A stretch of DNA of 64,000 bases from Microlunatus antarcticus (lineage in GTDB: Bacteria; Actinomycetota; Actinomycetes; Propionibacteriales; Propionibacteriaceae): the NCBI RefSeq assembly GCF_014193425.1, contig NZ_JACHZG010000001.1, forward strand, positions 2,294,001 to 2,358,000, in the 5' to 3' direction. A program made the position numbers and the translations under genes. How positions within the stretch are numbered: the first letter of the stretch is position 1; each line of letters opens with the position of its first letter. This document shows positions 21,970-37,583 of this stretch, one piece after another. The notes under the pieces were generated by a model. It ran no database searches. It was not told the origin of the DNA and was given only the letters and a program-made list of their open reading frames with translations.

Positions 21970-22329
21970 TCAGGGCGCGACGTGGTTCTTCGGCGGGGGC
22001 TCGACCCCCCACCGCTGACGGACGCCGAGTCGCCGCGCGAGCAGCTCGAGGGCGGCGGTGTGCAGCAGGGCCTGGAGCTGCCCGCGCGGGGCGTGCCCGA
22101 AGTGGCCGTAGACGTCGGGGAACTCGGGCGACCCCCGCCACGACACGTGGACGAGGACGGCGTCAGCGGCCAGACCGACGGACCGGGCTCCGCGCAGCGG
22201 CGCCTCCGTCATGCCGAGGTCGGCGGCCGTGACCGGCGCCGAGGCGTGGTCGGCGAGACGCCCGTCGAGCTCGGCGACCTGCGCCATCTCGAGCGTGTGC
22301 GTGGTGGGCGGCAGCGAGGAGTGGCTCAT
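21970..22329 (-). CDS. Hypothetical protein, possibly DevR-regulated
   Basis: This 119-residue protein from ATG 22329 is not one I recognise. It has a hydrophilic N-terminus, a central strand (SVGLAADAVLVHVSWRG), an aromatic patch (PEFPDVYGHFGHAPRG) and a C-terminal amphipathic helix (LQALLHTAALELLARRLGV). It contains no Cys and no membrane segment. It is divergent from a universal stress protein with a DosR-like box in between, so it may belong to the same regulon. The opposite strand also has an open frame, but with unlikely composition. Confidence 0.55.
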   Translation of the reverse strand: MSHSSLPPTTHTLEMAQVAELDGRLADHASAPVTAADLGMTEAPLRGARSVGLAADAVLVHVSWRGSPEFPDVYGHFGHAPRGQLQALLHTAALELLARRLGVRQRWGVEPPPKNHVAP

Positions 22330-22354
22330 GACCGGCTTTCGTGGAGGGGTGTCC

Positions 22355-22368
22355 GGGTCTTTCGTCCC
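22355..22368. promoter_or_regulatory. DosR-box-like site GGGTC-TTTC-GTCCC
   Basis: It matches the core GGGAC-N4-GTCCC of the mycobacterial DosR box at 9 of 10 positions and lies between the divergent genes at 22329 and 22425. Confidence 0.55.
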
Positions 22369-22424
22369 GCGACCGACGCCTTTCGCCTCTGGGGCACTCG
22401 CCGCCTCAGACCGAGGCTGGTGCT

Positions 22425-23159
22425 GTGCTCCCCGACCGTCGTCCCCGCGCGCGGACGGCGGAGGTGGTCGTCGGCATCGCGGGTCACGGGCTCGACGGCT
22501 GCCGGAGCGCCGTACGGCTCGGGGCGGAGGAGGCCAGGCTGCGCCGGCTGGGCCTCCGGCTCGTGCACGGCAGCCGACCCGCCGGGCAGGAGGACCACCT
22601 CGCCCCGAGCGGCATGGAGTGGCGCCAGCAGCGCGGCCGCCGCCTCGTCGGCGGCGCGGCCCGCGACCTCGCGGTGACCGCGCTCGGGCGTGACCTCGCG
22701 ATCTGGACCGAGAGCTCGCCGCGCACGGCGGTCGACCTCCTCACCACCCACGCCCGTACGGCGGTGCTGCTCGTGCTGCAGCGCCCGGACGGTCCGGACG
22801 ACCCGGTCGGTCTCACCATCGACGCGGTCTCCGCGAGCGCCTGGTGCCCGACGCTGGTGGTGCGATCGCGCGACCGTGCCGGAGCGGGCGTCGGCGTCCT
22901 GGTCGTCCTCGACCCCGGGCACGACGCCGGGCCGGCGCTGGTCTTGGGCGCCACGGAGGCCCGGCTGCGGGGCACAGCCGTCACGGTGCTCGACGGGCGC
23001 GAGTGCAGCGTCGCCGACCTCGAGGCCGCGTCCGACGGCGCGGCCCTGATGGTGGTGGTGCGCCCGGGGCGCGGTGCCCACGGGCCCGTGGTGGACGCGA
23101 TCGACGTGGCCCGCTGCCCGGTCCTGACGGTCGCCCCCGACGACGACCCCGGGACCTGA
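22425..23159 (+). CDS. Universal stress protein (tandem domain, divergent)
   Basis: This is a 244-residue protein from GTG 22425. The first domain opens with the USP strand VVVGIAGHGLDGCRSAVRLG where the usual VDGS is IAGHG, so the phosphate loop is changed. The second domain has VLVVLDPGHDAGPALVLGA and ends CPVLTVAPDD. Binding of ATP may be lost. USP proteins are cytoplasmic and induced in stasis or hypoxia; in mycobacteria many are DosR targets. It is preceded by a DosR-like box and is convergent with the next USP gene. An upstream extension to 22341 would overlap that box. Confidence 0.72.
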   Translation: MLPDRRPRARTAEVVVGIAGHGLDGCRSAVRLGAEEARLRRLGLRLVHGSRPAGQEDHLAPSGMEWRQQRGRRLVGGAARDLAVTALGRDLAIWTESSPRTAVDLLTTHARTAVLLVLQRPDGPDDPVGLTIDAVSASAWCPTLVVRSRDRAGAGVGVLVVLDPGHDAGPALVLGATEARLRGTAVTVLDGRECSVADLEAASDGAALMVVVRPGRGAHGPVVDAIDVARCPVLTVAPDDDPGT

Positions 23160-23202
23160 GCGCCGCCTCAGCGCACCGGGTCGGCGAGACGCGGCCCGGC
23201 GC

Positions 23203-24087
23203 TCACGACACCCTCAGGAGCTCGGGCAGCGCGGAGGCGGGCGGGACGTGGTGGTGACGACGTCGCGGCACGACGACCAGGGGGCAGCCGACCCCGCCCA
23301 TCACGCGTCGCGCGACCGAGCGGGTCCAGGCGGCCAGGCCGTCGGTGTGCGGTGGACCGAGCACGAGCACCGCGGCGCTCTCGGCGGCGGTCAGCAGCAC
23401 CCGCTGCGTGACGCCCCGGACCGTGACGACGCGCGCCGGCGTGCTCGGGTGACGGACCTGTGCGCGGGCGAGCAGCTCGACGACGTTCCGCGCGGCCGAC
23501 TCGGTCTGGCCGTGCGTGCCGCCCGGGACGCTGTGCAGGGCGACGACCTCCGTGCCGAGGAACGTGGCCTCGTCGAGCGCGAAGTCCAGGGTGGCCAGCG
23601 AGACCGCCTCCCCGTCGAGCGCCACCACCACCGGGCGCCGTTCGTGCTCGACCTGGCGCCACGCCGGGGGCACCACGACGACCGGGCAGCCGGAGTGGTG
23701 GGCCACCGGTGACGCCACGCTCCCCCGCCCGAGCCGGTCGAACCAGGCGGTGGCGTGCTGCCCGACCACCACCAGCGGGGCGGAGCGGCTCAGCTCCTGC
23801 ATGAGGAGCGCCGGCAGCGTCTCGGCGAACCGGGTGCGCAGGGCGACCGCCGGCGGGACGTCCAGGGCGTCGACCGCACCGGTGAGGAGGTCCCGCCCCG
23901 CCTGCTCGAAGTCGTCGACGAAGGACCCGCTCAGCGGGACGTCGACCAGCGGCATCGGATAGCTGTAGACCAGCTCCACGTCGAGGCCGCGCAGGGCCGC
24001 CGTACGGAGGGCGTAGCGGGCGGCGACCAGGGAGTCGGGCGACCCGTCCACCCCCACGACGACGGTCCGCTCGTAGGTCGGTTCCAT
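23203..24087 (-). CDS. Universal stress protein, two USP domains
   Basis: This is a 294-residue protein of two USP domains. Domain 1 begins TVVVGVDGSPDSLVAARYAL and ends VASPVAHHSGCPVVVVPPAW. Domain 2 begins PVVVALDGEAVSLATLDFAL and ends GGVGCPLVVVPRRR. A G-2x-G-9x-G-like nucleotide loop is visible only partly (VVVGQHATAWFDRLGRGSVASPV). It follows the next USP gene (24132) after 44 nt, so both should be driven from the DosR-like box at 25159. The function in dormancy is inferred from the family and the regulon. Confidence 0.88.
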   Translation of the reverse strand: MEPTYERTVVVGVDGSPDSLVAARYALRTAALRGLDVELVYSYPMPLVDVPLSGSFVDDFEQAGRDLLTGAVDALDVPPAVALRTRFAETLPALLMQELSRSAPLVVVGQHATAWFDRLGRGSVASPVAHHSGCPVVVVPPAWRQVEHERRPVVVALDGEAVSLATLDFALDEATFLGTEVVALHSVPGGTHGQTESAARNVVELLARAQVRHPSTPARVVTVRGVTQRVLLTAAESAAVLVLGPPHTDGLAAWTRSVARRVMGGVGCPLVVVPRRRHHHVPPASALPELLRVS

Positions 24088-24131
24088 GGGTCACTCCTCC
24101 GCTGGTGGGTCACTGGGGTTGGGCAGACGCG

Positions 24132-25043
24132 TCAGGGGACGAGGACGGGCGCACCGGTCGCCGAGCGCCCGTCGGAGCGGGTGGGCTCCGGACCGGGCGG
24201 CACGATGACCAGCGGGCAGCGGGACTGGTGGAGCATCGCGCGGGCGACGGAGTGGCGCCAGGGCCGCCGACCGTGGTGGACCGGGGGTCGACCGAGGACC
24301 AGCAGACTCGCCCGCGCCGACACGTCGACCAGGGCGGGCACGGTCTGGACGGCGACGAAGCGGTAGTCGACGGCGACGTCGGGGTGGTCCTGGCTCTGCC
24401 CCGCCACGAGCTCGGCCGCCGTCCGCCGGGTCGCCGCCCGGCGCAGGGTGCGCGCCTCCACGGGGGTGGACGCGTGCAGAACGAGCACGCTCGCGCGCCG
24501 CAGCTCGGCCTCGTCGAAGGCGAGCTGCAGGACGGAGGTCGCCGACGTCGTCTCGCTCATCCCTACGACGACCGGGCGCAGGCCCAGGTGGGCGCTGCGG
24601 GTGACGGTGCTCTTCCACCCCGCCGGCACCACGACCACCGTGCAGCGGGCACCGGCCGCGACCTCGGAGGCCACCGAGCCCGCCAGGTCGCCGTCGGCCA
24701 CGTCGAAGTGGTGCCGGCCGAGGACCAGCAGGGTCGCCTCGGCCGCCAGCGCCGTCAGCAGCCCCGTGGTCGACGTGCCCTCGACCACCGTGTGCACGAC
24801 CGTGGTGGGGGCGACGGCGACGTGGGAGAGCACCTCGTCGACGAGCGCCTGGCCGGTCGATCGACGCTCGTGGGCGTCCTGGCCGTCCGGGCTCGCTCCG
24901 GGTCGGTACGCGTGCCCGACCATCAGCTCCAGGCCGCGCAGCGCGGCCTCGTGCGCGGCGTAGCGGGTGGCCTCCACGCTCTCCGGCGACCCGTCGACAC
25001 CGACGACCACGTGCCGGGGACCCGCTCGTCCGACCATCCGCAT
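24132..25043 (-). CDS. Universal stress protein, two USP domains
   Basis: This 303-residue tandem USP starts at ATG 25043, behind a GAGGAG ribosome site 5-6 nt upstream. Domain 1 is HVVVGVDGSPESVEATRYAA to GARCTVVVVPAGW. Domain 2 is PVVVGMSETTSATSVLQLAF to SRCPLVIVPPGPE. The loop LVLGRHHFDVADGDLAGSVASEV resembles the ATP-binding loop of the class. It is the first gene of a two-USP minus-strand unit, divergent from the PPOX-devR operon and sharing its DosR-like box. The two proteins are diverged paralogues. Confidence 0.88.
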   Translation of the reverse strand: MRMVGRAGPRHVVVGVDGSPESVEATRYAAHEAALRGLELMVGHAYRPGASPDGQDAHERRSTGQALVDEVLSHVAVAPTTVVHTVVEGTSTTGLLTALAAEATLLVLGRHHFDVADGDLAGSVASEVAAGARCTVVVVPAGWKSTVTRSAHLGLRPVVVGMSETTSATSVLQLAFDEAELRRASVLVLHASTPVEARTLRRAATRRTAAELVAGQSQDHPDVAVDYRFVAVQTVPALVDVSARASLLVLGRPPVHHGRRPWRHSVARAMLHQSRCPLVIVPPGPEPTRSDGRSATGAPVLVP

Positions 25044-25158
25044 CCGTGTCTCCTCGTCGTGGCCCCCGCTCGCGGCCGGCCGAGCCCGGTCGACCGCGCG
25101 CTCCCTCCAGGCTGGGTCGTCGGCGGCCCGGTGGGCAGAGCCGAACGGCACCGGTACC

Positions 25159-25172
25159 GGGACCTACGTCAC
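25159..25172. promoter_or_regulatory. DosR-box-like site GGGAC-CTAC-GTCAC
   Basis: 9 of 10 core positions match. It lies between the USP unit (25043, minus) and the PPOX-devR operon (25265, plus), so it would also allow autoregulation of devR. Confidence 0.6.
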
Positions 25173-25264
25173 CCCCGTGGGGGTCCTCGGCCTCTGCGGG
25201 GCGGGGTCGGGCCCGCCCACACTGGCCGTGACCCAGCCGAAGCACGCACGAAGAGGTGGACCCG

Positions 25265-25699
25265 ATGAGCGCGCTCGCTCCCGCAGAGATCGACGCCGAC
25301 GTACGCGAGCTCTCGGCCGAGCGGTGCCGCGAGCTCCTGGAGCTGGCGACCGTCGGACGGCTCGGCTACGTCTCCAGCGGCGGCGTGCAGATCGTCCCGC
25401 TGAGCTACCGCGCCGCGGGCGGTGTGCTCTACCTCCGCACCCGGCCCGGCAGCCTCGTGGACCAGCTGGCCGAGGGGGGACGCGAGGTGGCCTTCCAGGT
25501 CGACAGCTTCACCCCCGGCGCGGGTCTCGCCTGGAGCGTTCTGATGCAGGGGCGGGTGCAGACGCTGGACGCCGCGGACCTGGCCCTGGTCCACGACCTC
25601 CAGCGGGCGGCCATGCCTTGGACCGGCGGCCACCTGCGTGATCTACGGTTCGTTCCGAGCAGCTTCAGCGGACGGACGATCACGCACGTCGACGCCTGA
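25265..25699 (+). CDS. PPOX-fold flavin/F420-binding protein
   Basis: This 144-residue split-barrel protein has the phrase LSAERCRELLELATVGRLGYVSSGG, then VQIVPLSYRAAGGVLYLRTRPG and VAFQVDSFTPGAGLAWSVLMQG. This is the pyridoxamine-phosphate-oxidase-like family common in the mycobacterial DosR regulon (Rv2004c/Rv3129-like neighbourhoods). The ligand is FMN, F420 or none. The start at ATG 25265 is behind a purine-rich GAAGAGG. It is cotranscribed with devR, which starts 28 nt downstream. It is a paralogue of the protein at 31598. Confidence 0.87.
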   Translation: MSALAPAEIDADVRELSAERCRELLELATVGRLGYVSSGGVQIVPLSYRAAGGVLYLRTRPGSLVDQLAEGGREVAFQVDSFTPGAGLAWSVLMQGRVQTLDAADLALVHDLQRAAMPWTGGHLRDLRFVPSSFSGRTITHVDA

Positions 25700-25727
25700 G
25701 GCCGCCACCCGAGGACGGGAGGACGGC

Positions 25728-26408
25728 ATGACGACCGTCGACGGGCCGCCCCGTGCCGCCACCACCCGCGTGTTCATCCTGGACGACCACGAGCTCGTCC
25801 GCCGCGGGCTGGTCGACCTCCTCGGCTCCGCCCCGGACCTTGAGGTCGTGGGCGAGGCCGCCACCGCCGGCCAGGCGCTGCGCCGGATCCCCGCCGTGCT
25901 CCCCGACGTGGCCGTGCTCGACGCGCGGCTGCCCGACGGCAGCGGCATCGAGGTCTGCCGCACGATCCGGTCCGACCACCCGGGCGTGCGCTGCCTGATC
26001 CTGACGTCGTACGACGACGACGAGGCCCTGTACGCCGCCGTCCTGGCTGGTGCGTCCGGCTACCTGCTGAAGGACATCGTCGGGTCGAGCCTGGTCGAGG
26101 ACATCCGCCACGTCGCCCGAGGCCGGTCGCTGCTCGACCCCGCCCTGACGAGCAAGCTCATGGAACGTCTACTGCAGCCGCCGCAGGACGACCCGATGGT
26201 CGCCGGCCTCACCCCGCGCGAGCAGGACGTGCTCGCCCTGATCGCCGAGGGCCAGACGAACCGGCAGATCGGCGAGCAGCTCGGCCTCGCCGAGAAGACC
26301 GTCAAGAACTACGTCACGGGGATCCTGATGAAGCTCGGCATGCAGCGCCGTACGCAGGCCGCCGTCTTCGGCTCGAAGGTCCGCCGTTCCGCGAAGCCCC
26401 CGGTCTGA
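25728..26408 (+). CDS. devR: DevR/DosR-like NarL-family response regulator
   Basis: This is a 226-residue two-component regulator. The receiver has phosphoacceptor D65 (VAVLDARLPDG), T93 and K115 (YLLKD). The LuxR-type output domain has LAEKTVKNYV with K190, K193 and N194. Compared with mycobacterial DosR (D54, T82, K104, K179, K182, N183) every key residue is present at a constant offset of 11, supporting orthology. In mycobacteria DosR drives the hypoxia/NO dormancy regulon. The start at ATG 25728 follows GGGAGG. It lies among its likely targets; the DevS-like kinase is at 29206. Confidence 0.9.
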   Translation: MTTVDGPPRAATTRVFILDDHELVRRGLVDLLGSAPDLEVVGEAATAGQALRRIPAVLPDVAVLDARLPDGSGIEVCRTIRSDHPGVRCLILTSYDDDEALYAAVLAGASGYLLKDIVGSSLVEDIRHVARGRSLLDPALTSKLMERLLQPPQDDPMVAGLTPREQDVLALIAEGQTNRQIGEQLGLAEKTVKNYVTGILMKLGMQRRTQAAVFGSKVRRSAKPPV

Positions 26409-26420
26409 CCGACCGTTCGC

Positions 26421-27248
26421 CGTGCCGCCGCCGGCCGCGCTGGAACCCCTCGGGCGTCTGCTCGGGCACGAGGGTGTCGGCACGGTCGCCGAGGTCGGCT
26501 CCGCCGTCTCGACCGTGGCGGTCGGCGACCGGGTGATCATCTCGTGCATCAGCGCCTGCGGGTCGTGCTCCTACTGCCACCAGGGCCTGTACGCGTACGG
26601 CCTGGCCGAGGAGGGGGCGAGCGGGATCGGCTCGATCCTCGGCCACCTGATCGACGGGACGTAGGCCGAGCTCGTCCGGTGCCCTTCGCCGACGACTCGC
26701 TGGACAAGGTCCCCGACGGCGTGAGCGACGAGGGGGCGGTGATGCTCTCCGACATCCTGCCCACCGGGTTCGAGATCGGGGTCCGCTACGGCCGGGTCGA
26801 GCCCGGTGACGTGGACGCCGTCGTCGACCTCGACGCCAACCGGCTCGAGCAGGCCGCGTCGTTCGGCGCGACGGACACGGTGACCAGCGGGGACGAGGAC
26901 TGGGTCGAGCAGGTGCTCGCTCTCACCGACGGGCTCGGCGTGGACGTCGCCATCGAGGCGGTCGGCGTGCCGGCCACCTTCGCCGCGTGCCTCGCGATCG
27001 TCCGCCCGGGCGGATCGGTCGCCAACGACGGTGTGCACGGCACCTCCGTGCCGCGGCCCCTGCAGGACCTCTGGATCATGGACCTCTCGATCACCACGGG
27101 GCTGGTCAGCACCTCCACCACCGCGATGCTGCTGAAGCTCGTGGCCCAGTCGAGGCTCGCGGTGACCGTCGGCCGTGACCTTGGTCCCGACCTCCGCTTC
27201 CTTCGCCTCTTCCGGTCCGGGCCGCGGGCGGTCACCATCGAGGTATGA
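26421..27248 (+). pseudogene. Degraded zinc-dependent alcohol dehydrogenase
   Basis: Fragments of one zinc alcohol dehydrogenase are readable in two frames. The first (to TAG 26662-26664) has LGHEGVGTVAEVGSAVSTVAVGDRVI and SCISACGSCSYCHQG. The second frame resumes near 26680 with PFADDSLDKVPDGVSDEGAVML and ends GVHGTSVPRPLQDLWIMDLSITTGLV. Damage includes a missing N-terminus with the first zinc Cys, an internal stop, a one-base frameshift near 26680-26690 and loss of the Rossmann glycine motif (GDV joins DAVVDLDANRLEQA). It sits between devR and a PPOX gene, as if a former regulon member. Confidence 0.82.
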
Positions 27249-27694
27249 CGCAGGACGTGGAGCAGACGACCACCCCGCCCGCCCGTCCCGCCGTCGAGAC
27301 GCGCGCGCTGAGCGTGCAGGAGTGCTGGTCGCACCTGCGTCAGCAGACCAGAGGCCGGCTGACCTACCTGTCCGGTCGCGGACCGCGGCACGTGGTCCTC
27401 TCCTACGTCGTCCGGGACGACGAGCTGGTCGTGGAGGTGCCGCCGTACAACGAGGCGGCGCAGTACGCGCGCGGGCGCCGGGTCACCTTCGACGTGATCA
27501 CCCGGACCGGGGAGCGGAGCGCCCGACGGGTCGACGTCGCCGGTCTCGCCCGGGTGCTCGGTCCCGGTGCCGTCTGGGACACCGGGCCCGCCGGCCACCG
27601 ACCCCCGGACCGTCCCGGCCGGCTGGTCGGCCTGGCGGTGGACGAGGTCTGCGGGAGGCTCGAGCAGGTCGGCGTCGCGGACCGTCCGCGGTGA
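27245..27694 (+). CDS. PPOX-fold protein
   Basis: This 149-residue protein has a split-barrel pattern: LSVQECWSHLRQQTRGRLTYLSGRG, then HVVLSYVVRDDELVVEVPPYNEAAQYARG and VTFDVITRTG. It is more diverged than the PPOX proteins at 25265 and 31598, and the cofactor is unclear. Its ATG overlaps the last codon of the alcohol dehydrogenase pseudogene as ATGA (27245-27248), suggesting it was once translationally coupled to an intact dehydrogenase. It is convergent with the USP at 27765. How it is now transcribed is unclear, presumably by read-through from the devR promoter. Confidence 0.78.
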   Translation: MTQDVEQTTTPPARPAVETRALSVQECWSHLRQQTRGRLTYLSGRGPRHVVLSYVVRDDELVVEVPPYNEAAQYARGRRVTFDVITRTGERSARRVDVAGLARVLGPGAVWDTGPAGHRPPDRPGRLVGLAVDEVCGRLEQVGVADRPR

Positions 27695-27764
27695 CGGGGT
27701 CCCTCTCGCTCGGTGCTCGTGGCGCAGCAGCGTCAGCGGATGGGCCTCGACCGGCCCGTCCGGC

Positions 27765-28199
27765 TCAGCGGACGACCAGGACCGGGCACGGCGCGTGAGC
27801 CGCGACGTACTGGCTCACCGACCCGAGGAGCAGGCCGACGAAGCCGCCGTGCCCGCGGCTCCCGACCACGACCAGGTCGGCGCCGTGAGCCGCCGCCACC
27901 AGCTCCCGCGCGGCGTGGCCCTCGACGACCTGCTGGTCGAGCCGCGGCGTCGGCTCGTCACCCAGCACCGAGGTCAGCGCGTCGGCCTGCTGCTGCTTGG
28001 CGACGGCGCTGAGGTCGGCCTCGCTGACCAGCCCGTACGCGACGTAGCCCGGGGCCCCCGCCACCACCTGCTCGGTCCAGCTGGTCACGACGGTGAGGGT
28101 CGCGTCGTGCTCGCGCGCCTGCTCGAGCGCCGCCCGCAGCGCGAGCCGGCTCCCCTCCGACCCGTCCACCCCGACCACGACCCGTTCCCACTTGTCCAT
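27765..28199 (-). CDS. Universal stress protein, single domain
   Basis: This 144-residue USP begins RVVVGVDGSEGSRLALRAAL and carries the intact nucleotide loop LVVVGSRGHGGFVGLLLGSVSQYVAAHAPCPVLVVR, the G-x2-G-x9-G-S pattern of ATP-binding members. It is cytoplasmic and probably dimeric. It is divergent from the USP at 28351, with a DosR-like box between them. It is closely related to the proteins at 28351 and 31164, so the locus contains recent paralogues as well as the older tandem-domain proteins. Confidence 0.92.
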   Translation of the reverse strand: MDKWERVVVGVDGSEGSRLALRAALEQAREHDATLTVVTSWTEQVVAGAPGYVAYGLVSEADLSAVAKQQQADALTSVLGDEPTPRLDQQVVEGHAARELVAAAHGADLVVVGSRGHGGFVGLLLGSVSQYVAAHAPCPVLVVR

Positions 28200-28261
28200 G
28201 GGCCCACCGTCGCCCGACAGTGCGCCCCGGGCCAGAGCCGAACGTCCCGGGTCGCGCCGGG

Positions 28262-28275
28262 AGGACGAAGGTCAC
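28262..28275. promoter_or_regulatory. DosR-box-like site AGGAC-GAAG-GTCAC
   Basis: 8 of 10 core positions match. It lies between two divergent USP genes (28199 minus, 28351 plus). This is the weakest of the four sites. Confidence 0.45.
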
Positions 28276-28350
28276 TGGCCGCGCCCCGGCCGACAGGCCA
28301 CCGTGGGACCACGACGACCGCACGGTCGTCGAACCCGTGGAGGAGCAGCC

Positions 28351-28779
28351 ATGACCGACACCCGAGGTCGCATCGTCGTCGGCGTGGACGGGTCGGACGC
28401 CTCGACCGGCGCCGTCCGCTGGGCGGTCGGCCAGGCCACGCTCACCGGCGCCGACCTGGAGGTGCTGACCAGCTGGCACTTCCCCAGCCAGTACGCCGAA
28501 TGGGTCGCCGACGACATCGACTGGGACGCGCGGGCCCGCGCCCTCCTCGAGGACACCCTCGCCGCGGTGCACGTGGAGAAGACGATGACCGTCACGCGGA
28601 CGGCTCGACCGGGTCACCCCGCCGCCGTCCTCACCGACGCCTCGGCCGGCGCCGACCTGCTCGTGGTGGGCTCGCGCGGCCACGACGGCTTCGCCGGGCT
28701 GCTCCTGGGCTCGGTCAGCGCCCACGTCGCCGCGCACGCGCACTGCCCGGTCGTGGTCGTGCGCCATCGCGTCGACTGA
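28351..28779 (+). CDS. Universal stress protein, single domain
   Basis: This 142-residue USP starts at ATG 28351, behind GGAGGAG. It opens RIVVGVDGSDASTGAVRWAV and ends with the ATP-type loop LVVGSRGHDGFAGLLLGSVSAHVAAHAHCPVVVVR. A Trp-rich stretch (TSWHFPSQYAEWVADDIDWD) lies after strand 2. It is likely cotranscribed with the small membrane protein gene at 28826. It faces the USP at 27765 across a DosR-like box. Confidence 0.92.
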   Translation: MTDTRGRIVVGVDGSDASTGAVRWAVGQATLTGADLEVLTSWHFPSQYAEWVADDIDWDARARALLEDTLAAVHVEKTMTVTRTARPGHPAAVLTDASAGADLLVVGSRGHDGFAGLLLGSVSAHVAAHAHCPVVVVRHRVD

Positions 28780-28825
28780 TCCCTCCCGCGCCGACCGGGT
28801 CCGCACGGCGGCCCGACGCACGCTG

Positions 28826-29209
28826 GTGGTCGCCTCCGTCTTCAACGCGGTCTCGGCCGTGGGTGGCGGGATCGGCATGGTGGTCGCGCACGGCTTGTCG
28901 ATGCCGCTGTCGCTGCTGACGGACAGCCCGTTCTCGACGTTCCTGCTGCCCGGTCTGATCCTCGCCCTCGTGGTCGGCGGCACCCAGACCGCCGCGGCGG
29001 TCCTGCTGCTGCGACGCCGTACGTCGGCCCTCGTGTGGTCGGCGGTGGCCGGCTTCGGGATGGTGATCTGGATCGTCGCCGAGGTCGGCTACCTCCACGT
29101 CCTCGGTTGGGCCCAGATGATCTACCTGGTGACGGGCCTCGGGCAGCTGGTGCTCGTCTTCTCGCTCCTCGGCATCGTCGCCTGGCTCCCGCGGAAGACC
29201 ACCGGCTAG
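28826..29209 (+). CDS. Small four-helix membrane protein
   Basis: This 127-residue protein from GTG 28826 has four predicted transmembrane helices (VASVFNAVSAVGGGIGMVV, TFLLPGLILALVVGGTQTAA, ALVWSAVAGFGMVIWIVAEV, LVTGLGQLVLVFSLLGIVAWL). I recognise no named function. It follows the USP at 28351 by 46 nt and is probably in the same stress-induced transcript. Its stop overlaps the stop of the convergent sensor kinase in a shared CTAG. The exact start is uncertain because in-frame sequence continues upstream. Confidence 0.75.
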   Translation: MVASVFNAVSAVGGGIGMVVAHGLSMPLSLLTDSPFSTFLLPGLILALVVGGTQTAAAVLLLRRRTSALVWSAVAGFGMVIWIVAEVGYLHVLGWAQMIYLVTGLGQLVLVFSLLGIVAWLPRKTTG

Positions 29210-30870
29210 GACCGTCGGTCCCCGACCGCCAGCGGAGCCTCCCACTCCAGCCGCAGCCCACCCCCGTCGCGCGGCGTGAGCCCGAGGCTGCCGCCCGCCT
29301 CGAGCGCGCGCCGGTGGAGGTTCCCCAACCCACGTCCCCAGGGCTGGTCGCCGAGGCCGGCACCGTCGTCGCTCACCACGACCCGGACCCGGTCGCCGAC
29401 CACCTGCACGTCCACCTCGACCAGCTCGGCGTCGGCGTGGCGGACGACGTTCGTCAGGGCCTCGCTGACGACGGCGGTCAGGTCGGCGAGCAGGACGTCG
29501 TCGACCAGGGTGTCGACCGGCCCGAGGAACAGGACGCGCGGGCTCGTCCGCAGCCCGGCCCCGGCCCGCCGCACCACGTCGAGGACGGCGGTCCGCGGGC
29601 CGGGGCGGTCCGGGTCGGAGTCGGTGAGGGCGAAGATCGACGTCCGGATCTGGCGGATGGTGTCGCCGAGGTCGGTCACCGTCCGCGCGAGGACGCCCCG
29701 CACCGGCTCGGCCTGCGGCGTCGCGAGCGCGCCCTGCAGGCTGAGGCCGCTCGCGTACAGACGCTGGATGACGTGGTCGTGCAGGTCGCGGGCGATGCGG
29801 TTGCGGTCCTCGAGGACGGTCAGCCGCTGCTGGTCGGCGCGCGCGTCCGCCAGCTCGAGCGCCAGCGCGGCCTGTGCCGCGAAGCCGCCGGCCAGGTCGA
29901 GCTCGGCCTCGGTGAAGCGGGGACGTTCCTCGATGCGGCCGACCACGATCACGCCGCGCGCCCCCCACTCGCCGATCAGCGGCAGGGCCATCACCGGGCC
30001 GACGGACATCGCCTCGGTCAGGTGGACGTGCAGGTTCTGCTCGGACACGGAGTCCAGCAGCACGCCCACGCCCTCCTCCATGGCCATCCAGTCGAGGGTG
30101 CCCGTGCGCGGGTAGCGCAGGGCCAGCAGACCCTCGGCGTCGCGCCCGGCGACGACGGCGATCTCCAGGCTCTCGGGGTCGTCGTCGGTGGGCAGCACGA
30201 CGGCGGCGACGTCGGCCTCGGCGAGCCGCGCCACCGTGTCCGCGATGCGCTGGAGCACCAGCGTCGCGTCGCTGCTCGGGTTGAGCAGGCCGCGGGTGAT
30301 CTCCGCGGCCGCCGCGAGCCAGTCCTGCCGGCGGCGCGTGTCGGAGTAGAGCCGGGCGTTCTCGATCGCGATCCCGGCGGTGGCCGCCAGCGCCAGCACG
30401 AGCTCCTCGTCCTCCGCGGAGAACGGCCGCCCGTCCGTCCGGTCGGTGAGGTAGAGGTTGCCGAACACCACGTCCCGCGACCGCACCGGCACCCCCAGGA
30501 ACGTCGTCATCGGGGGGTGGCCGGCGGGGAACCCCACCGAGAGGCGGTCGCTCTCGATGCGCGTACGGCGGGCCGCCACCGGCGTCTCGATCAGGGCGCC
30601 CAGGATGCCCAGGCCCTGCGGCAGCTCGCCGATCTGCGCGACGGTCTCCGGGCTCATGCCCGTGTGGACGAACTCCTCGAGCCGCCCGTCCGGGCCGATC
30701 ACGCCGAGCGCGGCGTACCGGGCCCCCGCCACGACCTGGGCGGCTGCGACCACACGCCGCAGCACGGCTGGGAGCGCCAGCTCCTCGACGATGGACCGGT
30801 TGGCGGCCAGCAGCGCGCGGAGCCCGTCCTGGGTGGGTCCGCGTCCCGCTCGCTCGTCGGGTTCTGCCAT
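29206..30870 (-). CDS. devS: DevS/DosT-like GAF sensor histidine kinase
   Basis: This is a 554-residue cytoplasmic kinase. GAF-A (about 30-175) contains SVGFPAGHPPMTTFLGVPV, where H118 aligns by motif with the haem-binding His of mycobacterial DosS/DosT. GAF-B spans about 190-345. The phosphoacceptor is H364 in RIARDLHDHVIQRLY (HisKA_3 type), followed by an ATPase domain with EALTNVVRHADA and DDGAGLG. In mycobacteria these kinases sense O2, NO and CO or redox through haem and phosphorylate DosR. It is the presumed partner of the regulator at 25728. The start at ATG 30870 excludes an unlikely N-terminal extension. It is divergent from the DUF1918 operon across a DosR-like box. Confidence 0.9.
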   Translation of the reverse strand: MAEPDERAGRGPTQDGLRALLAANRSIVEELALPAVLRRVVAAAQVVAGARYAALGVIGPDGRLEEFVHTGMSPETVAQIGELPQGLGILGALIETPVAARRTRIESDRLSVGFPAGHPPMTTFLGVPVRSRDVVFGNLYLTDRTDGRPFSAEDEELVLALAATAGIAIENARLYSDTRRRQDWLAAAAEITRGLLNPSSDATLVLQRIADTVARLAEADVAAVVLPTDDDPESLEIAVVAGRDAEGLLALRYPRTGTLDWMAMEEGVGVLLDSVSEQNLHVHLTEAMSVGPVMALPLIGEWGARGVIVVGRIEERPRFTEAELDLAGGFAAQAALALELADARADQQRLTVLEDRNRIARDLHDHVIQRLYASGLSLQGALATPQAEPVRGVLARTVTDLGDTIRQIRTSIFALTDSDPDRPGPRTAVLDVVRRAGAGLRTSPRVLFLGPVDTLVDDVLLADLTAVVSEALTNVVRHADAELVEVDVQVVGDRVRVVVSDDGAGLGDQPWGRGLGNLHRRALEAGGSLGLTPRDGGGLRLEWEAPLAVGDRRS

Positions 30871-30897
30871 CGCCGACCACAGTAGGGCGCGCCCGCC

Positions 30898-30911
30898 GGG
30901 ACCTTGGTCTC
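30898..30911. promoter_or_regulatory. DosR-box-like site GGGAC-CTTG-GTCTC
   Basis: 9 of 10 core positions match. It lies between the kinase (30870, minus) and the five-gene operon starting at 30947 (plus). Confidence 0.58.
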
Positions 30912-30946
30912 TGGCTCCGGCGCGTGCGTCCGGCGACGCTGGAGCC

Positions 30947-31153
30947 ATGCAGGCCGTTCCGGGTGACGAGCTCGTCGCGGCGAGCGACGACACCAGCCGT
31001 ACGCGCAACGCCGAGATCCTCGAGGTCCGCGGGGCCGACGGCCAGCCGCCCTACCGCGTGCGGTGGCGCGACACGGGACTGATGGCGCTCGTCACCCCGG
31101 TGGCGGGTTCCGTCGTGCTCGCGTCGGGCCACGACGGCGAGAACCAGCTCTGA
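30947..31153 (+). CDS. DUF1918 protein
   Basis: This 68-residue protein reads MQAVPGDELVAASDDTSRT, then AEILEVRGADGQPPYRVRW and VTPVAGSVVL. That is the SH3-like DUF1918 pattern found beside stress genes in actinobacteria. The function is unknown. It is the first gene of a five-gene run (30947-33985) with gaps of 10 and 2 nt followed by overlaps of 11 and 4 nt. The first gene lies 36 nt after a DosR-like box. Confidence 0.85.
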   Translation: MQAVPGDELVAASDDTSRTRNAEILEVRGADGQPPYRVRWRDTGLMALVTPVAGSVVLASGHDGENQL

Positions 31154-31163
31154 GGAGAGACCG

Positions 31164-31595
31164 ATGACGTGGACACGAGTGGTGGTCGGGATCGACAGGT
31201 CGCCCGGGAGCAGCCGGGCCCTGCGCTGGGCGGCCGACGAGGCCCTCGACCACAGCGCCGAGCTGTACGTCGTGATGGCCTACAGCGTCCCGGCGCCGCC
31301 GGTGTCGATCGGCTACGGCCAGCCGCCGTGGCGGGCGGAGGACGAGTGGCGCAAGGACGCCGAGGGAGCACTGCGCGAGGCCCTCCGGACGACGCTCGGC
31401 GACGCCCCGGAGGTCTTCATCCGCTCCGACGTCGTCGAGGGCTCGCCCGCCAAGGCCCTGATCGACGCCTCGCAGGAGGCCGACCTGCTGGTGGTCGGCA
31501 CCCGGGGGCACGGAGGGTTCGCGGGCCTGCTGCTGGGCTCGGTCAGCCAGCACGTCACCGCGCACGCGGGCTGCACGGTCGCCGTCGTCCGCTGA
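31164..31595 (+). CDS. Universal stress protein, single domain
   Basis: This 143-residue USP starts RVVVGIDRSPGSSRALRWAA and keeps the ATP-type loop LVVGTRGHGGFAGLLLGSVSQHVTAHAGCTVAVVR. A Pro/Tyr-rich region follows strand 2 (YSVPAPPVSIGYGQPPW). It is second in the operon behind the DosR-like box at 30898, starting after GAGGAGAG 10 nt past the DUF1918 stop. It resembles the paralogues at 27765 and 28351. Confidence 0.92.
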   Translation: MTWTRVVVGIDRSPGSSRALRWAADEALDHSAELYVVMAYSVPAPPVSIGYGQPPWRAEDEWRKDAEGALREALRTTLGDAPEVFIRSDVVEGSPAKALIDASQEADLLVVGTRGHGGFAGLLLGSVSQHVTAHAGCTVAVVR

Positions 31596-31597
31596 GC

Positions 31598-32032
31598 ATG
31601 ACGCTCTCCGACGAACGGACCTCCGGTCACTTACACGTCCTCGACGAGGAACGGTGCCGCGCACTGCTGGCCTCCCACCACCAGGGCCGGATCGCCTGGA
31701 ACGCCGGCGACGGGCCCCAGCTCCTGCCGGTCAGCTACGCCCTGCACCTGGGCGAGGTCGCGTTCCGCACGTCGCCGTACGGCGCGCTGGCCCAGCTCCG
31801 GCGCCCCACGATGGTGGCCTTCGAGATCGACGAGATCGACCCCGTCGCCGGTGCCGGGTGGAGCGTGCTGGTCCGCGGCCGGGCCGAGCCCGTCACCCGG
31901 GCGGACGATCTCGCCACCCTCTGGGGCCAGGAGGGGATGGTCCCGTGGGCGACCGGCACGCGCAACCTCGTCCTCCGCATCGCCGAGCACAGCATCAGCG
32001 GTCGCGCCGTGAGGGCCCCGTATGCCGACTAG
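31598..32032 (+). CDS. PPOX-fold flavin/F420-binding protein
   Basis: This 144-residue paralogue of the protein at 25265 has LHVLDEERCRALLASHHQGRIAW, then LLPVSYALHLGEVAFRTSPYGALAQ and VAFEIDEIDPVAGAGWSVLVRG. It is a split-barrel fold of the pyridoxamine-phosphate-oxidase-like family with unknown substrate. ATG 31598 begins 2 nt after the USP stop. Its end overlaps the next gene by 11 nt, supporting one polycistronic message. Confidence 0.85.
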   Translation: MTLSDERTSGHLHVLDEERCRALLASHHQGRIAWNAGDGPQLLPVSYALHLGEVAFRTSPYGALAQLRRPTMVAFEIDEIDPVAGAGWSVLVRGRAEPVTRADDLATLWGQEGMVPWATGTRNLVLRIAEHSISGRAVRAPYAD

Positions 32033-32804
32033 CGCCCTGCTCGCGGAGCGTCCGGTCCCCCGGGCCGCCCGTCGCGTGCGGGAGGACTGGGTCCGACTCT
32101 CCGAGCCGACCCTCGACCCCCCGCCGTTCGACGCCGGGATGGTCGCCCACCTGCCGGAGCCGGCGCGGCGCTACCTGACCCACGCGATCGCCCCCGGGAC
32201 GCCGCTGTGGCAGTCGGTGCAGGTCTCGATGGTGGGCCGGATCGGGCTGGGCTCGTGGCGTCGCTTCAGCGCCGACCAGGTCGTGGCGCCCGGTCGCGGC
32301 TACATCTGGGCGGCGGTGGCACGGGTCCTGGGCGTGCCCGTGGTCGGCTACGACCGGCTCAGCGGCGGCAGCGGCGAGATGCGCTGGCGGTTGCTGGACC
32401 TGGTGCCCGTCGCCGACGCGTCCGGCGCCGACGTCACGCGCAGCGCGGCCGGCCGGCTGGCGTCGGAGATCGTCCTCGTCCCCACCGCCTTCGCGAGCGT
32501 CACCTGGACGGCCGGAGGTGCTGACACCGCGGTCGCGACCTCGGGCCGCGGGGCGGAGCAGCAGCGGGTCGAGCTGCACCTCGGGGCCGACGGCCACCTG
32601 GTCGACCTGGTCATGCAGCGGTGGGGCAACCCCGACGGAAAGCCGTTCGCGCTCCATCCCTTCGGCGTCAGCGTGGACGCCGACCGCGCCGCCGACGGTG
32701 TCACCACACCGTCGGCGGTGCGGGCGGGATGGTGGCACGGCACGGACCGGCAGGACGCGGGCGAGTTCTTCCGGGCCGAGATCACGCGCGTGGAGCCCCG
32801 GTGA
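32022..32804 (+). CDS. DUF6544-like protein
   Basis: This 260-residue soluble protein contains HLPEPARRYLTHAIAPGTPL, MVGRIGLGSWRRFSADQVVAPGRGYIW, and later VTWTAGGADTAVATSG. This resembles a family of lipocalin-like actinobacterial proteins of unknown function (DUF6544, recognised by pattern only). No catalytic motif or signal peptide is seen. It overlaps the preceding PPOX gene by 11 nt and the nitroreductase by 4 nt, so it probably shares the DosR-like promoter. Confidence 0.68.
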   Translation: MPTSALLAERPVPRAARRVREDWVRLSEPTLDPPPFDAGMVAHLPEPARRYLTHAIAPGTPLWQSVQVSMVGRIGLGSWRRFSADQVVAPGRGYIWAAVARVLGVPVVGYDRLSGGSGEMRWRLLDLVPVADASGADVTRSAAGRLASEIVLVPTAFASVTWTAGGADTAVATSGRGAEQQRVELHLGADGHLVDLVMQRWGNPDGKPFALHPFGVSVDADRAADGVTTPSAVRAGWWHGTDRQDAGEFFRAEITRVEPR

Positions 32805-33985
32805 GCGTGCCGGTCCACCCGACGGTCTCCCGCCGCCGGGTGCTGCGCGGCTTCGGTGCCGCGGGCGCGACGGTCCTCGTGGTCGGCGCCGGCGCCGGGG
32901 GCTACCGCGTGGTCGACACGGCGGCGCTCCGCCCGGGGCACGGGCAGGCGTACGACCCCTGGCGCCACTGGGACTCCACGCCGGGCCCGCTGGGTGCGGT
33001 CGCCGCCGCGGTGCTGGCCGCGAACCCCCACAACACCCAGCCCTGGCTCTTCGAGGTCGGCGCGACCACGATCGACGTCGGGGTCGACCCCGGACGGCAC
33101 CTCGGCAGCGTCGACCCCTACCGGCGCGAGCAGCACGTCGGCCTGGGGTGCGCGCTCGAGAACCTCGTCCTCGGCTGCCGGGCGCGTGGGCTCGAGCCCC
33201 GGCTGACGCTGCTGCCGGACGGGCCGGACGCCGCGCGGGTCGCCCGCGTCGACCTCGTCCCCGCTCCGGCGCAGCACGATCCCCGGCACGACGCCGTGGG
33301 CACCCGTCACACGAACCGCGGCCCGTACACGGACGAGCCCCTCGACGCCGCCGCCCTCGCCGGTCTCGTCGACCCGACCGGGCTGCCCGGGGTCGAGGTG
33401 GTGTGGGTCGTCGAGGAGGGGGCGAGGGCGAGCCTCGGCGGGCTCATGGTCGACGCGGCCCAGGCGGTCGTCGACGACGAGACCCAGTCCCGCGACGGGT
33501 TCGCGTGGTTCCGCGGCGACGACGACGCGGTCCAGGAGCACCGGGACGGGCTGACGCTCGACGCGCAGGGCCTCGGGCCGCTGGTCCTCGGCGTCGTCAA
33601 GCTGCTGCCCGCGTCCTCGCGGAGCGGGGGCGACGCGTTCTGGGTGAAGCAGACCCGCGACGTGCACACGGCGACCGCGACCGCGTACGGCGTCGTCGTC
33701 TCGGCCGAGCCCGACGACCGCGCCACGCAGCTCCGGGCCGGTCGGCTGCTCCAGCGGACCCACCTCACCGCGACCACGCGGGGGATCGGGCTGCAGCACA
33801 TGAACCAGGTCACCGAGCGCATCGACGCCGAGCGCGTGGCCGGGCGGGCTCCCACCTTCGGTCCCCGCCTCGCCGCGCTGCTCCCGCCGGGCGCGCGGCC
33901 GCTGGTCGCGTTCCGGGTGGGGTGGCCCGAGCGCGCGGCCCGACCCAGCCCCCGCCGACCCGTCGGGGCCGTCGCCCGGACCTGA
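32801..33985 (+). CDS. Acg-family nitroreductase-like protein
   Basis: This 394-residue protein from GTG 32801 has an N-terminal twin-Arg-like segment (SRRRVLRGFGAAGATVLVVG) that may act as a signal or anchor. The body has the Acg pattern: AANPHNTQPWLFEVGATTID, GLGCALENLVLGCRARGL, TRHTNRGPYTDEPLD and THLTATTRGIGLQHMNQ. The mycobacterial homologues (Acg/Rv2032, Rv3127, Rv3131) are DosR-induced, degenerate nitroreductases thought to sequester FMN. It is the last gene in the five-gene operon. Confidence 0.86.
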   Translation: MSVPVHPTVSRRRVLRGFGAAGATVLVVGAGAGGYRVVDTAALRPGHGQAYDPWRHWDSTPGPLGAVAAAVLAANPHNTQPWLFEVGATTIDVGVDPGRHLGSVDPYRREQHVGLGCALENLVLGCRARGLEPRLTLLPDGPDAARVARVDLVPAPAQHDPRHDAVGTRHTNRGPYTDEPLDAAALAGLVDPTGLPGVEVVWVVEEGARASLGGLMVDAAQAVVDDETQSRDGFAWFRGDDDAVQEHRDGLTLDAQGLGPLVLGVVKLLPASSRSGGDAFWVKQTRDVHTATATAYGVVVSAEPDDRATQLRAGRLLQRTHLTATTRGIGLQHMNQVTERIDAERVAGRAPTFGPRLAALLPPGARPLVAFRVGWPERAARPSPRRPVGAVART

Positions 33986-35211: not shown

Positions 35212-35724
35212 CTAGCGCTTCTCTTCGAGCTTCAGCGCCACGCCGAGCGCCATGAAGGTCGGGGCCCAGTGACCGATGAAGATGCCCCAGCGGTCGGACT
35301 GGCCCTTGTCGTCACCGGTCTTGTTCCGGCTGATGAACCAGGTCGTCAGCGACAGCCCGATCGAGGCGAAGGCCCCGACGTAGGCGTACTCGCTGCGGAA
35401 GCCGAGGCGGTGCAGGCGGTTGACCACGCCGTGGCCCTCCTGCACCTCGTCGACGGCGCCCTGGACGCGGTCGGAGACGTGACCGGCCGCCTCCTTGGCC
35501 TTGTCGGTGGCGTCGTCGGCCACGCGCGACGCGGAACGTCGCGCCTGGTCGGCCGTGTCGCCGACCTTGTCGGCGACGTCCTTGGCCTTGTCGGACGCGT
35601 CGTCGGCCAGGTCCTTGACCTTGTCCGAGGCGTCGTCCGCGACGTCCTTCGCCTTGTCCGCGGCGTCGTCCGCCACGTCCTTGGTCTGGCGCGCGGCGTC
35701 GTCCGCCGTGTCGTCGATGCTCAT
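35212..35724 (-). CDS. LEA-like 11-mer repeat protein with C-terminal membrane segments
   Basis: This is a 170-residue protein. Residues 8-51 are four back-to-back 11-residue repeats (consensus DDASDKAKDVA, starting at 8, 19, 30 and 41), with one more copy at 70-80 (DDATDKAKEAA). The period, Ala/Lys/Asp content and lack of Cys or Trp in this part match group 3 LEA proteins, which form amphipathic helices that stabilise membranes or proteins on drying. Two hydrophobic segments follow (about 113-131 and 147-164), so the repeat may be tethered to the membrane. It lies inside the Asp23 cluster. Confidence 0.82.
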   Translation of the reverse strand: MSIDDTADDAARQTKDVADDAADKAKDVADDASDKVKDLADDASDKAKDVADKVGDTADQARRSASRVADDATDKAKEAAGHVSDRVQGAVDEVQEGHGVVNRLHRLGFRSEYAYVGAFASIGLSLTTWFISRNKTGDDKGQSDRWGIFIGHWAPTFMALGVALKLEEKR

Positions 35725-37404: not shown

Positions 37405-37583
37405 CGCTTCTCGGTGGTGCGGCCGAGCAGGCCGGCGAGGTCCAGACGGCCGTCGAGGACGAGGCCGATGACGAGGCCGAGGGCCCCGAAGACCAGGACG
37501 ATCACGAACGAGCCGAACGTCCCGAAGGCGGCGGTCAGACCGAGGATCAGGCCCACGAACAGGGCGATGGTGGTGCGTGACAT
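37401..37583 (-). CDS. Small DUF2273-like membrane protein
   Basis: This 60-residue protein consists of one long or two short hydrophobic stretches (TIALFVGLILGLTAAFG, then FVIVLVFGALGLVIGLVLDG) and a charged tail. Small DUF2273 proteins of this kind accompany Asp23 genes in many Gram-positives. The function is unknown, presumably membrane anchoring. It is the first gene after the internal terminator and is coupled to the second Asp23 gene. Confidence 0.8.
   Translation of the reverse strand: MSRTTIALFVGLILGLTAAFGTFGSFVIVLVFGALGLVIGLVLDGRLDLAGLLGRTTEKR

Follow-up and report, generated by a model that had tools for sequence, protein, structure and literature searches.

In Mycobacterium tuberculosis, a set of genes for universal stress proteins (USPs), PPOX proteins and Acg-type proteins is regulated by DosR, also named DevR, whose recognition helix carries residues that contact DNA. 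Target promoters of this regulator are reported to hold closely packed boxes, the proximal one lying over the -35 element (PMC3029386). For OsdR (SCO0204) of Streptomyces coelicolor, several boxes of the regulon are reported to be bound in electrophoretic mobility shift assays (EMSA) (PMC5069765). A third system, PolS-PolR of Microlunatus phosphovorus, is a DevSR homologue reported to bind GTTCACnnnnnGTTCaC, a direct repeat, before phosphate and polyphosphate genes, with EMSA, footprint and ChIP-qPCR as the reported evidence (PMC6754071). Here we compare with these systems a 12-kb island of Microlunatus antarcticus, positions 21970-33985 of a 64-kb stretch that we call the window (G000:C1:2294001-2358000, in a genome of 4.37 Mb). 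The island encodes a DevR/DosR-type regulator, DevR1, and a DevS-type kinase, carries six candidate DevR-type boxes, and is, in all probability, a DosR/OsdR-type regulon.

The USP, PPOX, Acg-type nitroreductase and DUF1918 content expected of a DevR/DosR-OsdR regulon is present, as judged from Pfam and NF047509 scans. An initial annotation had listed six USPs, three PPOX proteins, DUF1918, an Acg-type protein, DevR and DevS; that inventory stands, with the caveat that one USP and one PPOX protein fall below the Pfam cut-offs. It had also counted exactly four divergent gaps in the island, which new gene calls bear out, with adopted limits of 22330-22424, 25044-25264, 28200-28350 and 30871-30946 (543 nt in total). 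Two of these limits depend on the choice of start codon, as the right edge of gap 1 assumes that its gene begins with the GTG at 22425, which we propose in place of the gene caller's 22464, and devS starts at 30870 or upstream, a second gene-caller run placing it at 30948 and so covering gap 4. The box proposed for each gap was found where it had been placed and with the same number of matches to the consensus arms, namely 22355 (9/10), 25159 (9/10), 28262 (8/10) and 30898 (9/10), boxes being named here by their first position. The candidate boxes number six rather than four, however (Table 1), with gap 3 holding two, one per direction.

The proteins themselves point to a DevR system. The best match of DevR1 in the Protein Data Bank (PDB) is M. 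tuberculosis DevR (3c3w), to which its recognition helix, AEKTVKNYV, is identical, and EKT[VI]KN is kept in all 33 DevR rows compared. The first GAF domain of DevS, GAF-A, aligns to the heme domains of DosT and DevS (2vzw, 2w3d) and retains both the histidine of the HPPM segment, which is the heme ligand, and the tyrosine of LYLTD, a distal residue. DevS is thus predicted, from its sequence, to bind heme and to sense O2, NO or CO. The HPPM-segment histidine is kept in 22 of 24 DevS rows, that of the window included, and is missing in a second DevS of the same genome, DevS2, and at locus L056 (genome G012), where a further DevS of the genus lacks the heme-loop histidine.

One rival explanation is that the boxes are palindromes that arise by chance in GC-rich DNA and came to light through being sought. 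Plain counting gives this explanation some purchase. The window has 78 consensus sites with up to two mismatches, under the shuffled mean of 128, and the whole genome has 408 sites with up to one mismatch, about twice the 198 of a reversed-pattern control, showing that such palindromes are common. Since two-mismatch sites are so frequent, consensus counting is indecisive, and a matrix was therefore built from other genomes. Its source was 19 DevR loci from 15 genomes of the same genus or family, the window and its own genome being excluded; 16 perfect intergenic GGGMC-N4-GKCCC sites served as seeds, and iteration yielded 42 sites with the consensus GGGACCtaGGTCCC. The matrix is palindromic and was scanned, in the genome to which the window belongs, over the window and sampled stretches.

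Within the window, the six best matrix sites are, in order, 30898, 27175, 22355, 25159, 28262 and 28235, followed by a seventh at 10.5. All four sites of the initial annotation thus rank fifth or better, and the gaps hold five of the six best, counting 30898, which was labelled coding in the matrix-scan run owing to the devS start at 30948 used there. When 1,000 decoy matrices were made by permuting columns, 937 had none of their six best sites inside a gap, 61 had one and 2 had two, as opposed to five for the real matrix. A background sample of 20 stretches taken from this genome holds just 3 positions, out of 389,620, that reach 14.04, the level of the weakest of the four original sites, and none among the 42,876 called intergenic, so that four sites in 543 nt have a Poisson P of ~1e-11 at the overall rate, or 8e-8 when an upper bound is used for the intergenic rate. 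The initial annotation had named, as one outcome fatal to its idea, that such sites be just as dense in intergenic DNA unrelated to the island; in this comparison, which covered about 9% of the genome, the idea held. In addition, GGGACCWWGGTCCC occurs with up to one mismatch at 11 places in the genome, of which 2 are in the island (P = 4e-4). No matrix site above 11 was found upstream of the USP at 10 further USP loci of the genome; the box therefore distinguishes the island and is not a mark of USPs in general. Taken together with the unseeded dyads and the recurring -10 spacing described below, the matrix ranking, decoys and background sample make chance extremely improbable, and we consider it refuted as an account of the whole set, although the 28262 or the 28235 box, taken singly, could still be a chance site. 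Separately, the 14 letters of the 28235 box, GAGCCGAACGTCCC, recur identically at 37510-37523, in called coding DNA of the window, with a score of 10.3.

Evidence that the box belongs to DevR systems in general comes from relatives. All 5-nt palindromic dyads with spacings of 0 to 8 were counted at 94 DevR loci, with no motif supplied. Five rows were removed ahead of this count and of those of -10 hexamers, partner spacing, gene families and arms: L071 and L072, which lie on the contigs of L047 and L052; L144, which is short; L146, from Anaerolinea; and L148, of low GC. The lineage arm comparison additionally omits L074. GGGCC-N4-GGCCC (48 intergenic, 8 coding) and GGGAC-N4-GTCCC (19 intergenic, 6 coding) are, apart from runs of N, the two dyads most enriched in intergenic DNA of all that have 15 sites or more, the intergenic and coding labels being rough at the twelve loci of lowest gene-call coverage (0.22-0.65; lower-GC relatives). 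The arms follow lineage, with GGGAC/GTCCC in the genus of the window (8/8 intergenic), GGGCC/GGCCC in Streptomycetaceae (38/40) and mixed arms in Microbacteriaceae (13/13). DevR loci elsewhere in the genus carry the box too, and those of other actinobacteria carry it with altered arms. It also sits before the relevant families, as a perfect box lies upstream of 23 of 70 USP and 13 of 52 PPOX genes at these loci versus 70 of 822 other genes; the counts are 10 of 67 for DevR-like, 10 of 68 for DevS-like and 4 of 19 for alcohol dehydrogenase (ADH)-like genes. Sites scoring at least 14 occupy 31 of 387,116 positions at genus and family DevR loci, most of them training loci, versus the 3 of the background sample. 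By dyad count, matrix scan and decoys alike, palindromic boxes ahead of regulon genes exceed background.

A candidate determinant of the arms, the residue after EKTxKN, was considered and is not claimed as the cause of the GGGAC/GGGCC difference. Tyrosine (36 loci) goes with 56 A and 42 C arms, histidine (14 loci) with 14 A and 56 C, and arginine (8 loci) with 6 A and 36 C, a distribution confounded by lineage and in which the histidine loci L126 and L147 favor A.

Promoter geometry provides a further line. Among 142 oriented box-gene pairs of the relatives, the -10-like hexamer NANNNT follows the box at an offset of 24 in 30 and of 25 in 22, against a mean of 3.8 per offset, and a third peak stands at 46 (16 pairs); with no gene filter, offsets 24, 25 and 46 have 37, 27 and 20 of 218 pairs, with a mean of 5.25. 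If the hexamer is taken as -12 to -7, the box center falls at -42.5, or at about -64 for the peak at 46. Partner boxes (up to three mismatches) around 111 perfect sites peak at a distance of 22 nt, with 32 versus a mean of 10.7 per distance. The 25159 box has a weak partner at just this distance, at 25181 (matrix score, 7.7).

In the window, a hexamer at 24 or 45-46 accompanies every one of the six boxes in one or both directions, and spacings of 24, 25, 45 or 46 fit 7 of the 11 box-gene pairs. An offset of 24 is seen from 30898 to the DUF1918 gene (GACGCT, with the ATG at 36), from 28262 to USP4 (CACCGT) and from 28235 to USP3 (GACGGT, with the start codon at 36), three boxes whose spacing would suit a proximal box over the -35 element. 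The other three lie about two helical turns further up, with hexamers at 45 for 22355 (GAGGCT, toward the rightward gene only), at 46 on the plus and 45 on the minus strand for 25159, and at 45 for 27175 toward PPOX2 (CACCAT). Of the 18 hexamers of the window, five start at 24, 25 or 46 nt (binomial P = 4e-4), a strict set that leaves out those at 45. The start codon is 12 nt past the hexamer start for 30898, 28235, 27175 and, with the proposed GTG, 22355. We make no more than a remark of leaderless transcripts, as start codons of the relatives at 12 (4 cases) and 13 (5 cases) barely exceed the mean of 2.3.

These observations are consistent with a model, in which we infer signal, phosphotransfer, binding and direction of regulation. 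DevS, predicted to sense O2, NO or CO through a heme-binding GAF domain, would phosphorylate DevR, and DevR~P would bind the GGGACCWWGGTCCC-like palindromes in the gaps and ahead of PPOX2, recruiting RNA polymerase from either of two box positions. From near -42.5, the 30898 box may serve the DUF1918-USP-PPOX-Acg genes, 28262 may serve USP4, and 28235 may serve USP3. From near -63.5 to -64.5, about two helical turns up, 25159 may act on PPOX1-devR and the USP pair, 22355 on the degenerate USP and 27175 on PPOX2. PPOX1 probably heads the devR operon. The 25159 box would place devR under its own control, as the initial annotation had proposed. The 22355 box is probably not driving the leftward 119-aa protein gene, because the start codon is only 26 nt away and no -10-like hexamer lies in between. 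The DosR-like regulon proposed in the initial annotation is thus supported by the recognition helix, the heme-pocket histidine and tyrosine, the recurrence of the box at DevR loci and the density test.

Several observations weigh against this reading. The boxes of the window are all imperfect, with 10/10 in none, and 27175, though among the top six, sits in a called coding piece. The genome holds 21 perfect boxes elsewhere, and of the 15 whose surroundings were read, 10 are coding; strong sites at the sampled loci of the genome that lack a known regulon link include C1:21578 (21.3), 1990920 (19.2) and 694611 (18.5, coding). Geometry is also incomplete, as 22355, 25159 and 27175 have no hexamer at 24-25, theirs being at 45-46, and offset 45 is minor in the relatives (7 of 142). 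The hexamer facing devS is at 14, gap 1 shows no hexamer toward its leftward gene, and overall 4 of the 11 box-gene pairs of the window lack a hexamer at 24, 25, 45 or 46. At the DevR loci of relatives, a perfect box is upstream of just 1 of 10 Acg-like genes and of the single DUF1918-like gene in no case. Finally, 7 of 24 genus and family DevR loci have no site of at least 14; four of these are short contigs, and the others belong to a divergent branch of DevR, of whose four loci they make up three. As a side observation, C1:21578 (L183 2579) and 1990920 (L173 1921), which are among the highest-scoring matrix sites seen in the genome, are intergenic, and one of them adjoins a protein that by eye is GAF-like.

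A second DevSR pair adds another level of complexity, and it too counts against a simple account centered on DevR1. DevS2-DevR2 is encoded at C1:1951099-1953338 (L044 8100-10339; DevR2, C1:1952658-1953338), and two of the 21 perfect boxes, at 1950954 and 1953550, flank it (P = 7e-5, for a span chosen afterwards). DevR2 is 65% identical to DevR1 and retains the helix AEKTVKNY, while DevS2, 48% identical to DevS over residues 124-550, is without the HPPM loop of the heme pocket. In the tree, DevR1 groups with a protein of genome G008 and DevR2 with proteins of G017 and G003; the two are therefore not recent copies of each other. The second pair could share or take over control of the island. In a variant that overlaps our preferred explanation, the boxes are genuine DevR-family operators with DevR2 as the main controller, or with both regulators acting jointly, DevS2 bringing in a signal other than a heme-bound gas. 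The existence of the pair, its flanking perfect boxes, the retained helix of DevR2 and the missing loop of DevS2 speak for this variant. However, DevR1 lies within the island, adjoining its boxes, and such boxes turn up at DevR loci in general; of the flanking pair, 1953550 sits between convergent genes, and no hexamer was found within the 44 offsets examined at the other, 1950954. We consider this variant possible, if rather unlikely.

The published work on PolR suggests a different alternative, that the regulator acts in the manner of PolR by binding the direct repeat GTTCACnnnnnGTTCaC, with the palindromes incidental. The EMSA, footprint and ChIP-qPCR data on the repeat (PMC6754071) are what favors it. 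The repeat would be expected in the promoters of a PolR regulon, yet it is absent from the island at up to two mismatches. None of the 14 places listed for it in the genome at up to one mismatch is in the window, and the two places in the window at two mismatches (chance mean, 2.95) are both outside the island. At the 94 DevR loci of relatives, it occurs at up to one mismatch in 0 intergenic and 6 coding positions. The PolR site is, moreover, called highly similar to the PhoP box by its own authors (PMC6754071).

Genome G019 is probably the M. phosphovorus strain of the PolR work, and its DevR locus is probably polR-polS, a single gene separating devR from devS, in line with the published locus tags. 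This locus itself carries GGGACTATCGTCCC, GGGACCAAGGTCAC and AGGACCAACGGCCC, and its boxes at L185 9283, 13179 and 15757 lie before genes for a phosphoketolase, a membrane-like protein of 147 aa and a PPOX protein; its DevR sits in a branch of the DevR tree different from that of DevR1. A PolR-like mode of action on the island is, on this evidence, highly unlikely. We make no claim against the published footprint; the main text of that paper (PMC6754071) contains no word starting with "palindrom". A broader proposal, which we put forward tentatively and with somewhat more doubt than conviction, is that in Microlunatus and its kin the true DevR/PolR operator is the palindrome GGGACCWWGGTCCC at -42.5 and about -64, and not the GTTCAC repeat, with a second DevSR pair whose kinase is heme-less layered on the same operator. 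If so, a single set of boxes would read both gas and another signal.

The features of the island are collected in Table 1. The first of its genes, for the 119-aa protein, has no Pfam match at 0.001 and one weak, sub-cut-off match at 0.5. The alcohol dehydrogenase remnant carries the strong 27175 box within its end, in a position to serve the next gene. To the right of the island, at 35212-35724, is a protein rich in aspartate, alanine and lysine repeats, with YtxH- and apolipoprotein-like matches, both below cut-off.

Table 1. Candidate DevR-type boxes and genes of the island, in positions of the window
Feature	Positions	Strand	Remarks
Box 1, GGGTCTTTCGTCCC	22355..22368	+	Matrix score 15.0, window rank 3
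Box 2, GGGACCTACGTCAC	25159..25172	+	Matrix score 14.8, rank 4; between USP and PPOX1-devR
Box new to this analysis, GTGACCTTGGTCCC	27175..27188	+	Matrix score 19.2, rank 2; PPOX2 start codon 57 nt after box
Second gap-3 box, GAGCCGAACGTCCC (as read on +)	28235..28248	-	Matrix score 12.1, rank 6; placed for USP3
Box 3, AGGACGAAGGTCAC	28262..28275	+	Matrix score 14.0, rank 5; placed for USP4
Box 4, GGGACCTTGGTCTC	30898..30911	+	Matrix score 19.5, rank 1; between devS and DUF1918-USP-PPOX-DUF6544-Acg run
119-aa protein, family unassigned	21970..22329	-	Left of gap 1; start codon 26 nt from 22355 box
Degenerate USP	22425..23159	+	PF00582 E=0.0018, below cut-off; GTG 22425 in frame, checked
Tandem-domain USP	23203..24087	-	PF00582 4.4e-26
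Tandem-domain USP	24132..25043	-	PF00582 1.1e-26, scanned from longer start 25151
PPOX1 (Pyridox_ox_2)	25265..25699	+	PF12900 1e-15
DevR1, DevR/DosR-type response regulator	25728..26408	+	3c3w E=1.6e-72
Zinc alcohol dehydrogenase remnant	26422..27248	+	ADH_N (PF08240) and ADH_zinc_N (PF00107) pieces in separate reading frames
PPOX2, divergent Pyridox_ox_2	27245..27694	+	PF12900 2.5e-5, 24.7 bits vs cut-off 27
USP3	27765..28199	-	PF00582 1.3e-32
USP4	28351..28779	+	PF00582 5.6e-30
Small membrane-like protein	28826..29209	+	No family above cut-off (Pfam and NF-model scans)
DevS-type kinase, GAF-GAF-HisKA_3-HATPase	29206..30870	-	Pfam; GAF-A vs 2vzw 1.5e-46, 2w3d 4.2e-42
DUF1918 protein	30947..31153	+	PF08940 1.7e-17
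USP5	31164..31595	+	PF00582 8.4e-30
PPOX3	31598..32032	+	PF12900 1e-23
DUF6544/DUF6920 protein	32076..32804	+	PF20181 9.8e-43 on 32022-32804; start 32022 also possible, gene-caller runs differ
Acg/Rv3131-family FMN oxidoreductase	32801..33985	+	NF047509 6.1e-66, 223 bits vs cut-off 199

Our data provide, from sequence and with controls, a definition of a DevR operator and its promoter geometry for a genus that includes a polyphosphate-accumulating species meeting alternating aerobic and anaerobic conditions. Among the titles listed in a literature search, with most subscription papers outside its coverage, none describes this island. Its likeness to the M. tuberculosis DevR/DosR system extends over the recognition helix, the heme residues of DevS GAF-A, the palindrome with GGGAC arms (the consensus as given in the initial annotation) and the USP/PPOX/Acg gene set. 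The placement of boxes in divergent promoters is likewise reported for M. tuberculosis (PMC3029386). Unlike in that species, devS here lies apart from devR, on the opposite strand and with its own box beside it, two DevSR pairs are present, and the spacer in the genus is mostly CWWG instead of TWWA. PolS-PolR is of the same DevSR family and from a genus-mate, M. phosphovorus, but its reported operator is a PHO-like direct repeat and its reported role is in polyphosphate (PMC6754071). As the one published operator found for this regulator disagrees with the palindrome, the published claim becomes testable by a single gel shift. With OsdR, the island shares the form of a non-mycobacterial DevR-type island, there with usp, PPOX and nitroreductase genes preceded by boxes (PMC5069765). 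The arms differ, being GGGCC/GGCCC at the DevR loci of Streptomycetaceae and GGGAC/GTCCC in the genus of the window, and this dependence on lineage matters whenever actinobacterial genomes are scanned with a mycobacterial matrix.

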